Notes under the pieces: model-generated
What the model saw: the letters and a program-made list of their open reading frames with translations, nothing else
The model's database searches: none
What the model was told of the DNA's origin: nothing
Source: a virus
Direction: 5' to 3' (one strand)
Length of the DNA stretch: 38,612 bases
IMG/VR virus record: IMGVR_UViG_3300037042_001249
Coordinates: 1-38,612 of that record
Position numbers and translations under genes: made by a program
Part shown: positions 30,802 to 38,456 of the stretch, one piece after another
Numbering within the stretch: the first letter of the stretch is position 1
Layout of the letters: each line of letters begins with the position of its first letter

Positions 30802-30830
30802 ATACTACGCACAACGTGCGTAACAGTCAA
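30802..30830 (-). promoter_or_regulatory. Sigma-70-like promoter between terS and the small-gene cassette
   Basis: On the minus strand, TTGACT (complement of 30825-30830) and TAGTAT (complement of 30802-30807) are 17 bases apart. It is the best promoter match I see on this arm. It overlaps the end of terS and would drive the small genes, terL and the structural genes. The spacer is a palindromic operator. Confidence 0.75.
30806..30822. promoter_or_regulatory. 17-bp palindromic operator, site 2
   Basis: TACGCAC-AAC-GTGCGTA is a perfect palindrome with a 3-base centre. It fills the promoter spacer and touches the -10. Confidence 0.65.
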
Positions 30831-31285
30831 GCATCATCTTCAACTTTTTTTAACGTTGCTCTTTGCTCAATAACGTCACCAATCACCACACGTTCGATTC
30901 GCTCAATCTTGAGCGGGTTTTCGGAGTCTCCACCTACAGTTACTTTATCGCCGTACTTCTTCGGGTTCCATTTCGCCAAAAGCTGCAAACGCGTCCATAT
31001 TCTGTTTTTCTGCCATGCGACATATCCAGCATCAACACCACCTCGATCAGTGCTTGGCGGCGGCTCATCTGCAATTGCCAATGTATCTGTAGCAATTATT
31101 TCGTGCCCAGCTTCTCTCGCGCGCGCGAATCGTTCGGCTAGTTCTGGCTTCGCATAAGTCCAGTCGTACCAAGTCGTAAGTCCGACTCCTACTTTCTTTA
31201 CCGCTTGCGCCAACGGGATTCCATTGCTTAAGCAATCAATAATTTCATTAGCTTTCGATTCGGTATAAGTAGAAACGCGCCCCAT
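30827..31285 (-). CDS. terS: Terminase small subunit
   Basis: 152 residues (P22 gp3 has 162). The N-terminal helix-turn-helix (YTESKANEIIDCLSNGIPLA, then VGVGLTTWYDW), the following KPELAERFARAREAGHEI, IADEPPP, and the late LQLLAKWNPKKYGDKV are the family signature. It recognises the packaging site and hands DNA to the large subunit. There is no good ribosome site of its own. The start lies 3 bases after the stop of a 21-residue reading frame with a strong ribosome site, so coupled translation is likely. It is separated from terL by about 2.7 kb. Confidence 0.88.
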   Translation of the reverse strand: MGRVSTYTESKANEIIDCLSNGIPLAQAVKKVGVGLTTWYDWTYAKPELAERFARAREAGHEIIATDTLAIADEPPPSTDRGGVDAGYVAWQKNRIWTRLQLLAKWNPKKYGDKVTVGGDSENPLKIERIERVVIGDVIEQRATLKKVEDDA

Positions 31286-31700: not shown

Positions 31701-31734
31701 CGCCCCACCCCTCAACCTTAGCACATTGTTCGTA

Positions 31735-31751
31735 TGCGCACAAAGTGCGCA
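31735..31751. promoter_or_regulatory. 17-bp palindromic operator, site 3
   Basis: TGCGCAC-AAA-GTGCGCA is a perfect palindrome with the same design as sites 1 and 2. It lies upstream of the DUF3310 gene. No good -35/-10 pair accompanies it, so it may act on a weak promoter or by another mechanism. Confidence 0.6.
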
Positions 31752-31905
31752 CCCCTAACCCCTGCCCCTGACGAATTGACAATGCCCCTACCGCCCCTGA
31801 CCTATAGGTGTCAGGGGCAGGGGCGGGGCGATTATTGTCAATTTTTCCACAATCGCCCCTAATCGCCCCTAACGCCCCTAGGGGCACTCAGGGGCATTTA
31901 GGGGC
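31752..31905. repeat. GC-rich pentamer array with nested inverted repeats, candidate replication origin
   Basis: About fourteen CCCCT/AGGGG-type pentamers lie within 154 bases. The core is a large imperfect hairpin: ATTGACAAT (31775-31783) pairs with ATTGTCAAT (31834-31842), GCCCC (31784-31788) with GGGGC (31825-31829), and GCCCCTGAC (31793-31801) with GTCAGGGGC (31810-31818). A second group (31855-31905) contains GCCCCTAGGGGC and CGCCCCTAA/TTAGGGGCG. The array runs into the 3' end of the primase-helicase gene. It lies next to the replication gene and resembles an iteron-type origin, but it could also act as a terminator. Confidence 0.5.
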
Positions 31906-33927
31906 GCCGTTTTTGCGCAGCAACATGGCGCTAACTTGGGCGTCTTGGACGAACACCCATCCATGCTCAAACGGCTCGATCATGCCAGCGTTGAGCATCG
32001 GCGCGATCAAACCATCGGCCCTGCTGGACTCTGTTTTATTTTTGGCGGTGCGCTCAGAAATACCATCCTGAATAAGTAACTCCCTCAATGCAGACCGGCT
32101 TATATATGGTTTGCCATCCCTTATTTCAGCCCCGCTATTAAACCACCCACGTTCCATCTTTCTGGCGTTTTCGTCATGCTTGCTGGGCCGCTTGTGTGGC
32201 TGTTCTGTGCTGGCGGATTCATCTGGTATTGCTACGCAAGTCGTGGCAGGTTTTCCGAACTTGGTGATACCCATCTCAACCACCTTAAGTTGAAAATAAA
32301 TGCTTTCACCTTTGCCTGATAGCTCTCGCTGTTTGGTAATGGTGGCAGACCTTATTCCGTCCTTTTCGACCACCTCGATTTCGGTATCAATATGCGCGCG
32401 AATTCCTGACCAACCGCGGGCCCCTTTGGCTTGATCCTTGCCGTTATGGTGGATAATTAAAATAGCCGCGCCGGTGGATTGTGCTACGGCATCGAACCTA
32501 GCCATGACTGGCCCCATATCCTCTCCGCTGTTTTCATTTGCCCCGGCTGACATTCGAGCCAATGTGTCGCCAATAATGAGTCGCACTGGCTGGCTTTTTA
32601 ATTGTTCAATCGTTTTTACCAGATCGATCACGTCATTGGCGTCGCCTTGATTGGCGTAAAAATTGAGCGGGACAGGCACCATCGCCAGCTTCTCAAGCGT
32701 GCAGCCAAATGCCTTTTTTATGGCCTGCATTCGTGAGCGGATGGATCCGGGGGCCTCGCTTGCCAAATACACCACAAGGCCAGGGTCAATTTGCCGCCCA
32801 AAAAATTCCTGTCCGCTGGCAATGTGGGCGGCCAAAGACAAAGCAAAAAATGTCTTGCCGCTGTTGCTGTCTCCGTACAGCACAGACATGCTGCCTATTG
32901 TGATCAAGCCCTCAACTAACTCGTTCGGTGCTTCGTAGTCGGCGGGCAACGCATCGCCAAAAACCACCTTCAGCTTATCGATGATCTTTTTGTCGGCCTG
33001 AGGATTTAACAACCCAGCCAGATCATTTCCCGCCTGCGCGTAATCGTTTGCATCCCCTTGGATCGACGGCATGACCATTCGAGCCCCGTACTTTGCGCAA
33101 GCTTGCTCCGCGTACTTTTGCCCAACACCGCTGGCATCGTTGTCAGCCACTATCACAATGTCCTGTGCTTGCCCGTATATGTCGCGCATGGTTCCAGTCA
33201 CCGGAACCAGATTGCTGGCGCTGTAGGCCACTACTACCGGCCTACCGCTCACTTCGTTGATGGTGGCGGCGGTGGCATAGCCCTCTGCCACATAAAGTAC
33301 GCCGGGCACGTCAAGAGTTCCGATCAGGCAAAACTTACCGCCTACGCTTCCGCCAGGGTGATAAAGCTTGCCGCCATCGGCATCAATGTATTGCAGGCTT
33401 GCGAGTACGCCCGACTCGTCAAACAGCGGAACCATAAGCCTACCGTCGCCGGTGATTTTTGCCCCGTGGGGCTGGATGCCCTTGCGTTTTAGGTACGGGT
33501 GCTCGGGGCTGGCTGCGGCACCTTCTGACCAGATGATATCGACTGTGCTGGCAGCGGCTTCGTTTTGTTTCTTTCGCTCGGCATCACGGGCGGCTTTGGC
33601 GGCGGCTATTCGTGCGACGTGGGCCATTTCCTCGGCCACGGTATATGGTTTGTTTGTGGTCGCTTTTATGGTTTTTTCTATGCCTTGCCGCCAGTCCCCA
33701 AAAATCATCGTGCAGATGCCGTCGGCATGGCCGACGTACCAGCCTGATCTATCGGTGCGCTTGTTGTCTGTACGAAACCGGCGCAGTTGGCCGTCCAAGA
33801 TAATTTCATCAGGCGGCGTGATGCCTGCCTCTAGCATCGCCTCACGAAACTGCACTTCGGGCGGAGCAAGTATCGGCGCTGGTGGCGGTGCCCACGGGCC
33901 CCCCAATATCTTAGTTAGATCAGCCAT
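31888..33927 (-). CDS. Primase-helicase (Toprim plus RepA-like ATPase)
   Basis: 679 residues. The N-terminal half is a primase-like region with a Toprim domain: E215 in VAEGYATAATI and D262/D264 in IVADNDASG. The C-terminal half is a hexameric RecA-type helicase: Walker A GDSNSGKT at 352-359, Walker B IIGDTLARM with D454, and IIHHNGKDQAKGARGWSGIR at about 491-510 as in RepA-like helicases. No zinc finger is visible at the N-terminus. It probably primes and unwinds at the phage origin. Its start overlaps the end of the HTH gene, and the candidate origin lies at its 3' end. Confidence 0.9.
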   Translation of the reverse strand: MADLTKILGGPWAPPPAPILAPPEVQFREAMLEAGITPPDEIILDGQLRRFRTDNKRTDRSGWYVGHADGICTMIFGDWRQGIEKTIKATTNKPYTVAEEMAHVARIAAAKAARDAERKKQNEAAASTVDIIWSEGAAASPEHPYLKRKGIQPHGAKITGDGRLMVPLFDESGVLASLQYIDADGGKLYHPGGSVGGKFCLIGTLDVPGVLYVAEGYATAATINEVSGRPVVVAYSASNLVPVTGTMRDIYGQAQDIVIVADNDASGVGQKYAEQACAKYGARMVMPSIQGDANDYAQAGNDLAGLLNPQADKKIIDKLKVVFGDALPADYEAPNELVEGLITIGSMSVLYGDSNSGKTFFALSLAAHIASGQEFFGRQIDPGLVVYLASEAPGSIRSRMQAIKKAFGCTLEKLAMVPVPLNFYANQGDANDVIDLVKTIEQLKSQPVRLIIGDTLARMSAGANENSGEDMGPVMARFDAVAQSTGAAILIIHHNGKDQAKGARGWSGIRAHIDTEIEVVEKDGIRSATITKQRELSGKGESIYFQLKVVEMGITKFGKPATTCVAIPDESASTEQPHKRPSKHDENARKMERGWFNSGAEIRDGKPYISRSALRELLIQDGISERTAKNKTESSRADGLIAPMLNAGMIEPFEHGWVFVQDAQVSAMLLRKNGAPKCP

Positions 33928-36260: not shown

Positions 36261-38456
36261 ATGGACTATGAATTATTCGTCGCGTCAAAAAGACGCGCAG
36301 AAATTGCAACAGGGCATCAACCCGGAGATTTAAATGAGCATTTGTTTGATTTTCAGCACGCAATAGTTTCATGGGCTGTTCGACGTGGCCGTGCTGCCGT
36401 ATTTGCAGATACGGGGCTTGGCAAAACGCTCATGCAGCTGTCTTGGGCTGATGAGATTGCATCGCACACTGGCGGGATGGTTTTGATTCTGGCCCCGCTG
36501 GCAGTATCAGAACAAACTATTGAGCAAGGCCGCACGTTCGGCATTGATGTGCATCGAGTGCCTAATGGTGGCACGCCAAATGCTCCGGGCATCTGGATCA
36601 CCAATTACGAACGAATGGATGCCATTGATTTCACCGAGCTGCATGGGCTTGTGCTGGATGAATCATCCATCCTCAAAGCTCATGACGGAAAGACTCGCCA
36701 GCGCATCATTGATGCCGCGCAGGGGGTTCCATATCGATTGAGCTGTACCGCTACACCAAGCCCGAATGACTTCGAAGAGCTTGGCAATCAATGCGAATTT
36801 TTGGGCGTTATGTCACGAACCGAGATGCTTGCCACTTACTTCGTGAATGATACGGGAGACACCGGAACATGGCGGCTTAAAGGATGGGGCGCATCAAAGT
36901 TTTGGGAATGGATGGGTACATGGGCCGTTGTTCTGCGGAATCCTTCTGACATTGGCTTTGACGGCAGCAAATACATTTTGCCGATACCTCAATACATTGA
37001 GCACGTTGTAAAAACAGACGTTATTGGGGATGAGCTTTTTTCGCTCCCCGCAATGGGATTGGCAGAGCGCAGAAAAGCACAGCGCGACAGCATCGAGGCA
37101 CGATGCAAAGCACTGGCTGATGTAGTCAATGCAGAAAGTACAGAGCCGTGGTTAATCTGGTGCCACTTAAACGATGAGGCCGAACTATTAAAAAGCCTGA
37201 TTCCTGGCAGTGTAAATGTGCAAGGAAGCGACACGCCAGAGCACAAAGCAAAACAGATGCTTGCGTTTTCGCATGGCGAATTGCGCGTGCTAATCAGCAA
37301 GCCAAAGATATGCGGATTCGGAATGAACTGGCAGCACTGCGCTCGAATGGCTTTCGTCGGGCTTGATGATTCGTTTGAGAAGTTTTATCAGGCGGTTCGA
37401 CGTTGCTATCGCTTTGGGCAAAAGCGCCATGTGCAGGTGCATTTATTTACTGCTGAAAATGAAGGCCAGATCCTTGAAAACCTGAAACGCAAAGAAAAAT
37501 TACATAACCAAATGAGCGAAAACATGATTGATTACATGAAGGACATCATGAACAAGGAGCTTGAAGGACAGCAAAACATCGTTGATGAGTACCGTGAAGA
37601 TACCCACGAGGGTGATGGCTACACAGTGCATCTCGGTGATTGCGTGAAATGGGCAAAACGCATGGCGGATAACAGCATCGACTACTCTGTTTTCAGTCCT
37701 CCGTTTGCCGATCTGTTTGTGTATTCAAACAGCGATCACGATATGGGCAATTGTAAGAATGACGCCGAGTTTGTCGCACAACTTCGCTATCTGATTGCCG
37801 AGTTGTTCCGTGTAATTAAACCGGGTCGCAACGTCAGCTTTCACTGCATGAATTTGCCCACCACGAAGATGCGCCAAGGTTTCATCGGCCTGCGCGACTT
37901 CCGTGGAGATCTTATTCGTGCTTTTCAGGATGTCGGATTTATTTATCACTCAGAGGTCTGCATATGGAAGGATCCGGTAGTGGCAATGCAGCGCACCAAA
38001 GCTTTAGGGCTGTTGCATAAAACAATCCGCGAAAACAGCACCATGAGCCGTATGGGACTACCAGATTACGTTGTCACCATGCGTAAGCCTGGAGAATGTG
38101 CAGAGCGTGTTACTCATGGAGATGATCTTCCTGTGAAGATGTGGCAGAAATACGCCAGCCCGATCTGGGGTGACATCAACCAAGGCCGCACGCTAAACAA
38201 ACTTCCAGCCCGTGACGAAAACGATGAAAAGCACATGTGCCCACTGCAACTGGATGTCATTGAGCGATGCATTCATCTTTGGACGAATAAAGGCGATTTG
38301 GTGTTTTCGCCATTTACCGGAATCGGAAGCGAAGGATATTGCGCAATGAAAATGGGACGTAGGTTTATCGGAACCGAACTCAAGCCGCAATATTGGGATT
38401 TGGCTTGCGAAAATATTGGTGATGCAAAACGTGATCAAATTGATCTTTTTGCATAA
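36261..38456 (+). CDS. Fusion of SNF2-type helicase and beta-class DNA methyltransferase
   Basis: 731 residues. N-terminal SF2/SNF2 ATPase: motif I ADTGLGKT (49-56), motif II LDES (132-135), motif III TATPSPND (163-170), motif VI QAVRRCYRFGQ (377-387). C-terminal amino-methyltransferase from about 450: motif IV SPPF (479-482), then the S-adenosylmethionine loop FSPFTGIG (682-689) with GRRFIGTELKPQYWDLA. Motif IV before motif I is the beta-class order. SPPF is more typical of N4-cytosine enzymes than the DPPY of N6-adenine enzymes, but the base cannot be settled by eye. The region between these motifs probably holds the target-recognition part. The ATPase could drive processive methylation or remodel bound proteins. 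It is followed across the junction by a Cas4-like nuclease gene. Confidence 0.9.
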   Translation: MDYELFVASKRRAEIATGHQPGDLNEHLFDFQHAIVSWAVRRGRAAVFADTGLGKTLMQLSWADEIASHTGGMVLILAPLAVSEQTIEQGRTFGIDVHRVPNGGTPNAPGIWITNYERMDAIDFTELHGLVLDESSILKAHDGKTRQRIIDAAQGVPYRLSCTATPSPNDFEELGNQCEFLGVMSRTEMLATYFVNDTGDTGTWRLKGWGASKFWEWMGTWAVVLRNPSDIGFDGSKYILPIPQYIEHVVKTDVIGDELFSLPAMGLAERRKAQRDSIEARCKALADVVNAESTEPWLIWCHLNDEAELLKSLIPGSVNVQGSDTPEHKAKQMLAFSHGELRVLISKPKICGFGMNWQHCARMAFVGLDDSFEKFYQAVRRCYRFGQKRHVQVHLFTAENEGQILENLKRKEKLHNQMSENMIDYMKDIMNKELEGQQNIVDEYREDTHEGDGYTVHLGDCVKWAKRMADNSIDYSVFSPPFADLFVYSNSDHDMGNCKNDAEFVAQLRYLIAELFRVIKPGRNVSFHCMNLPTTKMRQGFIGLRDFRGDLIRAFQDVGFIYHSEVCIWKDPVVAMQRTKALGLLHKTIRENSTMSRMGLPDYVVTMRKPGECAERVTHGDDLPVKMWQKYASPIWGDINQGRTLNKLPARDENDEKHMCPLQLDVIERCIHLWTNKGDLVFSPFTGIGSEGYCAMKMGRRFIGTELKPQYWDLACENIGDAKRDQIDLFA

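Follow-up and report, generated by a model that had tools for sequence, protein, structure and literature searches.

In a phage-like virus genome, a dense array of short repeats lies at the 3' end of a primase-helicase gene, and the question is what this array does and which protein reads it. The DNA analysed here, called the window, is the whole 38,612-base IMG/VR record IMGVR_UViG_3300037042_001249. With a 127-bp direct terminal repeat, the record probably represents the complete circle. It encodes P22-like portal and coat proteins, and a direct DNA similarity search of the window against phage records gave no match. Elsewhere in the window, at 36261-38456, a single open reading frame fuses a SNF2/DEAD-type helicase region to an N6/N4 DNA methyltransferase domain. 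A sequence-only reading had proposed that the array is an iteron origin. Comparison among relatives supports this proposal well and sharpens it: the array is very probably the replication origin of a P22-like phage, read by the phage's own primase-helicase.

Anatomy of the array and its hairpin

The array covers 154 bases (31752-31905) and contains eight CCCCT and five AGGGG pentamers; one extra CCCCT is found at 31708. The high density of units noted earlier was confirmed, but the exact count is 13 and not "fourteen or so". The hexamer AGGGGC/GCCCCT has 20 copies in the 38,612 bases, 11 of them at 31764-31905. The top 6-mer count per 154 nt was 11 in the array, compared with a maximum of 8 and a mean of 5.2 in 100 order-2 Markov genomes. 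The features are as follows.

31752..31769, no strand: flanking units on the DUF3310 side (CCCCT at 31752, CCCCT at 31759, GCCCCT at 31764)
31774..31843, no strand: hairpin element B, with words at 31784, 31793, 31813 and 31819
31843..31851, + strand: DnaA-box-like TTTTCCACA, which fits TTWTNCACA and is not the strict TTATCCACA
31855..31905, no strand: iteron cluster A (GCCCCT at 31855, 31865 and 31874; AGGGGC at 31880, 31890 and 31900)
31888..33927, - strand: primase-helicase gene, 679 aa (Toprim primase, RSF1010-RepA-type AAA_25 helicase, C-terminal winged helix)
31954..32145, - strand: codons of the C-terminal winged helix, residues about 595-658, the presumed word reader from the AF2 model and word co-variation
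32005..32067, - strand: codons of the putative recognition helix, residues 621-641 (624-632 SERTAKNKT), from the pairing of helix and word

The words of cluster A are inverted about CCCCTAGGGG with start-to-start spacings of 10, 9, 6, 10 and 10, a layout also found in relatives. In the window, a short AT-rich gap separates sets A and B and holds TTTTCCACA. As had been claimed, the array runs into the coding end of the primase gene, with the words at 31890 and 31900 inside the reading frame.

The large hairpin described before was also borne out. Its outer arms AATTGACAAT (31774-31783) and ATTGTCAATT (31834-31843) are complementary at 10/10 positions, and its inner arms GCCCCTGAC (31793-31801) and GTCAGGGGC (31810-31818) at 9/9. 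The inner core (31793-31818) is GCCCCTGACCTATAGGTGTCAGGGGC, with a CTATAG tip and, on the primase-sense strand, a 2-nt bulge in the 5' arm. Folded as single-stranded DNA, the region 31740-31910 reached -48.6 kcal/mol (z = -7.0), which none of 200 shuffles equalled. The cumulative G-C minimum was found at 33,450, 1.6 kb off the array; since it lies near a switch in gene direction, it does not discriminate between the readings.

Next to the array, at 31716-31753, the inverted repeat GCGCACAAAGTGCGC and the related AACAATGTGC adjoin a stretch that resembles a promoter and precedes the DUF3310/terS operon. A motif of this type recurs in many of the loci L003-L020, and these repeats are possibly operators of a late-gene regulator.

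The repeat word and the C-terminal domain among relatives

In Pfam, the primase-helicase matched only Toprim_3 and AAA_25, and a profile of the family found the RSF1010 RepA structures 1g8y/1nlf/1olo (E 1.3e-15). The C-terminal domain of the window protein had no Pfam match, and 59 members gave just weak, scattered ones. A solved-structure search with the C-terminal alignment returned nothing meaningful, and Foldseek with the AF2 model of the domain (mean pLDDT 82.4) gave no match at E <= 0.001. VIA matched the model to winged helices with Z up to 7.1, scores that according to the tool may reflect only a common arrangement.

For the comparison, 200 primase loci were collected from IMG/VR searches, named records and the window. 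Of these, 26 had less than 180 nt downstream or a protein outside 600-759 aa and were left out. The 174 usable loci were reduced to 74 representatives at 90% identity; L083 and L084 (on the contigs of L017 and L054) and the partial L204 are not among the counted loci. A word was called enriched when its 6-mer had p <= 0.05 against Markov shuffles of the locus's own array. In 56 of the 74 representatives one word of 6-8 bp was enriched, in both orientations, 3' of the primase-helicase gene. The other 18 stayed outside the correlations, some of them with visible words (Salicola, p 0.119). No word was detected 3' of the gene in the cluster of L123, in L164 or in L089, and L089 has a degenerate C-terminal domain. 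The L123 cluster (11 loci) has a different C-terminal type (SRRNLIDGKNARY...) and no enriched word 3' of the primase, and may have another origin type or another origin location.

Three of the 80 IMG/VR loci end within 20 nt past the match, and a GCCCCT array was seen by eye in 75 of the 77 others. The two exceptions, L017 and L054, are 80-100% identical to the window protein per 40-residue block up to residue 560, compared with 27-36% in the last two blocks, and carry a TGTAGCG-type repeat with CAAG and 21-bp spacing. The word swap of L017, which is below the word threshold (p 0.095), rests on block identity and repeat comparison and lies outside the correlation set. Other words stand at the equivalent site in named phages: GGGGACA in Salicola CGphi29, GGTACA in Idiomarinaceae 1N2-2 and GGTTCA, 3' of the primase gene, in Alteromonas PB15 and XX1924. 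According to the sequence-only reading, an origin would be refuted if close relatives with the primase had lost the repeats. The outcome favours an origin: close relatives either retain the array or swap word and C-terminal domain together.

When arrays were used as the starting point of the scan, a primase was found within 200 nt for 88 of 105 new loci, among the matches listed. Twelve of the remaining 17 were inspected. Most of them matched by chance and had no array; in L326 and L328 the array sits at the end of the contig, and L228 has additional sequence between gene and array. The other five loci (L252, L287, L305, L306 and L313) each contain a primase match.

Across the 56 representatives, the partial Spearman correlation between word and C-terminal domain given the core was 0.475 (permutation p 0.0005), and that between word and core given the C-terminal domain was 0.066 (p 0.10). 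When core and C-terminal domain were at least 80% and at least 60% identical, respectively, 56 of 65 pairs shared the word; with the same core identity but a C-terminal domain below 60%, none of 35 did. L110 and L093, for example, are 97% identical in the core and 43% in the C-terminal domain, and have the words GGTAAC and AGGGGG. Conversely, L171 and the window have 45% core identity, 68% C-terminal identity and a common word, although the pairs are non-independent and all 13 listed same-word pairs with a core below 55% involve L171. Since the word changes together with the C-terminal domain, these comparisons suggest that this domain reads the repeat word.

At 70-80% core and at least 60% C-terminal identity, words differed in 34 of 75 pairs, which we attribute to the recognition helix. 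Pairs with 8-9 of 9 identical helix residues had the same word in 145/145 cases, those with 7 of 9 in 17/19, those with 6 of 9 in 16/54 and those with 5 of 9 or fewer in 24/1322. AGGG was seen by eye in the extended consensus of all 33 arrays whose helices have RT at positions 3-4 (32 of 33 by script on the top 6-mer); the remaining 23 helices are diverse.

The codons of the C-terminal domain and the array are contiguous, and they could recombine as a block without one reading the other, the array having some different function. Cassette exchange of this kind was seen in L110/L093 and in L017/window, and joint transfer explains part of the co-variation because word and C-terminal codons are neighbours. 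Linkage without reading is nevertheless unlikely. Every copy of the word changes in concert, those in both hairpin arms included (47/47 loci), and the helix has a partial correlation with the word of 0.343 given the rest of the C-terminal domain (rest given helix, 0.335). Moreover, compared with its group, L144 has K in place of R in the helix and AGGGTTA in place of AGGGTCA in the array.

Two neighbouring genes offer other readers for the repeats. One is the small terminase, which could bind them as a pac site. Its Sf6-type gene is located about 600 bp downstream in the window (30827-31285), and in the 19 representatives where it was found TerS starts 149-2136 nt past the primase stop. In 13 representatives, however, the word followed the primase C-terminal domain (0.819 given TerS) and not TerS (-0.053 given the C-terminal domain), and 15 pairs with TerS less than 35% identical have a common word. 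A search at E <= 0.001 for TerS of the Sf6 type came up empty for 8 of 16 records. DnaA boxes would also be unexpected at a pac site. The strict box TTATCCACA occurs 37 times in 25,677 nt of arrays and 22 times in 524,946 nt elsewhere (1.44/kb versus 0.042/kb, about 34-fold); it is present in just 20 of the 74 representatives, and the window carries the loose form only. We regard packaging as a very unlikely role of the array.

The other is the upstream HTH regulator. Repeated sites are read by many phage repressors, and the array is adjoined at about 31716-31753 by a region that resembles a promoter and contains inverted repeats of the GCACAAAGTGC type, so that the C-terminal domain or another repressor might use it as operators for the late promoter or its own operon, with no role as an origin. 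In those pairs that are informative, the word did not go with the regulator: the regulator is 78% identical between the window and L017, with different repeats, and 82% between L160 and L111, with different words, whereas the window shares its word with L171 and L021 at 37% and 36% regulator identity. In L110/L093 (41%), L106/L093 (27%) and L138/L095 (53%) regulator and word both differ, and these pairs are non-discriminating. The array stays 3' of the primase gene even with a different downstream gene, and operators would leave the DnaA boxes and the strand-specific hairpin (see below) unexplained. An operator array is thus quite improbable.

The hairpin in relatives and its wider occurrence

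Among 70 loci of the AGGGGC type, 13 core types were found, 12 of which are perfect palindromes after two bases of the 5' arm are omitted. Outer arms could be parsed in 69 of the 70 loci; they fall into 12 types, with full complementarity in 11 types and 68 loci, and vary widely in sequence (AATTGACAAT, CCAGT, CCCAT, CCGTG). The hairpin arms turn over compensatorily. L008, L042, L044, L047, L049 and L075 keep the AGGGGC words and have a different hairpin, in L075 still with CTTTAG in the loop; hairpin and words can be exchanged separately.

Across all words, 55 of the 74 representatives had a hairpin with a listed tip and 8 bp or more (CTTTAG 22, CTATAG 18, CTTAG 5, GTATAC 4, CTTAAG 4, CTATATAG 1, CTTATAG 1). 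The reverse tips CTAAAG, CTAAG and CTATAAG were absent from the 74. With a slightly narrower tip list, the hairpin was found in 54 of 74 arrays and in none of 370 control windows. The tip list was picked after a scan that required no tip; the strand test and the unselected tetraloop tally (CTTTAG 22, CTATAG 18, next 4) are independent of this choice. In all 47 tip-hairpin loci with an enriched word, the two arms carry the word and its complement, respectively. The bulge was in the 5' arm in 45 of 47 hairpins when the tip was required; with no tip required (at least 12 bp, n = 44) it was in the 5' arm in 30 and in the 3' arm in 14. The arms therefore change with the word whereas the tip stays independent of it, and the hairpin is tied to one strand. 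We infer that the words are read by the C-terminal domain and the hairpin by another part, perhaps the primase or helicase core. A priming signal is a reasonable guess for the hairpin, helped by the strand-specific tip.

Strand specificity on the coding strand and co-varying arms would also be expected if the primase mRNA ended in a 3' structure such as a terminator, attenuator or stability hairpin. Against this, Watson-Crick pairs are kept (12 of 13 core types perfect, outer arms complementary in 68 of 69 loci), further copies of the word lie outside the hairpin in either orientation, the word tracks a domain of DNA-binding type, and a terminator scan gave none at the array. An RNA element is an extremely remote explanation.

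Similar structures occur beyond these phages. In L205-L225, mostly on Burkholderiales chromosomes, genes of the RepA type were seen with a word array and a CTTTAG hairpin on their 3' side; the loci are probably prophages and weakly suggest related hosts for the window phage. Of these 21 bacterial loci 20 were tested, and eight had a tip hairpin of 7 bp or more; GAGACA, GACACA and GATGCA are among their words. Five of the eight (L206, L207, L208, L213 and L215) have a C-terminal domain of another type. Some bacterial loci are RepA-only reading frames of 366-412 aa, and at L213 a short protein from the preceding gene looks like a primase zinc-binding domain. Eight further named records were examined. 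Arrays (GTATAA; CTACAA) together with a CTTTAG hairpin that has a two-base 5' bulge were found in three Roseobacter phages. Arrays lacking the CTTTAG tip were found in Rhizobium phage 16-3, Edwardsiella phage eiAU and a Klebsiella plasmid, and L338 and the IncQ2 plasmid pQ7 have no such tip hairpin. In Rhizobium phage 16-3 (L334), 3' of p101, CGTGAC/GTGACA occurs 15 times in 470 nt around the end of a RepA-like gene, which makes this segment of a classical temperate phage a candidate origin.

A candidate origin and its relation to known systems

The origin reading draws on the anatomy and conserved position of the array, the exchange of word with C-terminal domain, the compensatory arms, the strand-specific tip and the enrichment of DnaA boxes. 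Initiation might then proceed as follows. The C-terminal winged helix of the primase-helicase would bind the AGGGGC words, as the co-variation suggests. The RepA-type helicase domains would assemble at the words and open the AT-rich gap, perhaps helped by host DnaA in relatives with DnaA boxes. Unwinding would free the primase-sense strand, on which the hairpin with its TWTA tip could form. Least certain is the last step, in which the hairpin may be the first priming or assembly signal, like ssiA/ssiB of RSF1010.

We see about even chances for a broader proposal, a phage-wide class of origins in which one protein corresponds to RSF1010 RepA, RepB' and RepC together. In this class an exchangeable C-terminal winged helix would read one of many words of 6-8 bp, a natural recognition code with domain swaps, and the helicase/primase core would take its start signal from a shared strand-specific hairpin (tip CTTTAG/CTATAG, 5'-arm bulge of 1-2 nt). 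Exchange of the cassette of word and reader would then leave related phages that share a cell blind to one another's origins. If the reading is true, origins become predictable from one gene in many uncultured and cultured phages, and some nine residues suffice to tell the specificity of each initiator. L110/L093 and similar natural pairs are ready-made chimeras for studying how iterons are recognised, how origins become incompatible and what the hairpin contributes to priming.

No description of such an array was found in the accessible parts of the open-access literature, including those on CGphi29 (PMC6518143) and a roseophage (PMC12629253). TIGR arrays were considered as PMC12045711 names CGphi29, and were set aside because units in the phage array are 6 bp with about 10-bp spacing, from which TIGR arrays presumably differ.

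Several known systems share part of this arrangement. The alpha protein of satellite phage P4, with ori/crr, combines a Toprim primase, a helicase and a DNA-binding domain in one protein acting on iterons. The phage protein likewise has a Toprim primase fused to a helicase, but this helicase is of the AAA_25/RepA type, and that of P4 alpha belongs to a different family. We know of no such word family or tip hairpin in P4.

In SaPI/PICI elements the origin, with short iterons, lies directly 3' of the initiator-helicase gene and is recognised by the C-terminal domain of Rep; a primase is sometimes fused (PMC6092414, PMC7581432). The phage array shares the position of the iterons immediately 3' of the initiator gene. 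A SaPI/PICI origin also has two iteron sets on either side of an AT-rich region, to which sets A and B of the window, with the short AT-rich gap between them, may correspond. The Reps of SaPI and SCCmec Cch2 have DUF927 or Primase_Cterm/D5 helicase domains (PMC7581432), whereas the phage helicase is of neither type and has AAA_25 and Toprim only, a RecA-type helicase like RSF1010 RepA with a Toprim primase, here in phages. A hairpin with a conserved tip and the word in its arms is absent from the SaPI/PICI descriptions in the accessible portions of PMC6092414 and PMC7581432.

At RSF1010/IncQ oriV, RepC acts on iterons, RepA is the helicase and RepB' acts on the ssiA/ssiB hairpins (PMC4234260). 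The phage helicase domain is homologous to RepA, and both systems have iterons and a hairpin. In the phage, however, these functions lie in one 679-aa polypeptide with no separate RepC or RepB', a Toprim primase takes the place of RepB', and the array is 3' of the gene. The IncQ2 plasmid pQ7, where RepA and RepC are apart, showed no hairpin with a CTWTAG tip.

The Sulfolobus plasmid pRN1 has an operon of a repressor and a primase-helicase-winged-helix protein, and a stem-loop directly 3' of the primase-helicase gene is required for replication (PMC4234260). It has an archaeo-eukaryotic primase and an SF3 helicase, neither of which is present in the phage, and lacks iterons (PMC4234260). Like that of pRN1, the phage hairpin is a stem-loop 3' of the replication gene with structure conserved over sequence.

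The geminivirus origin stem-loop has a conserved tip. Short iterons in geminivirus origins match the cognate Rep and differ between close relatives (PMC12548392, PMC10653810). With a rolling-circle Rep and a ssDNA genome, geminiviruses are an analogy only. Taken together, the array is most likely a replication origin bound by its own primase-helicase. It would be comparable to SaPI/PICI rep-ori, to P4 alpha or to RSF1010 with its functions joined in a single polypeptide, and would differ by its RecA-like helicase and conserved hairpin.
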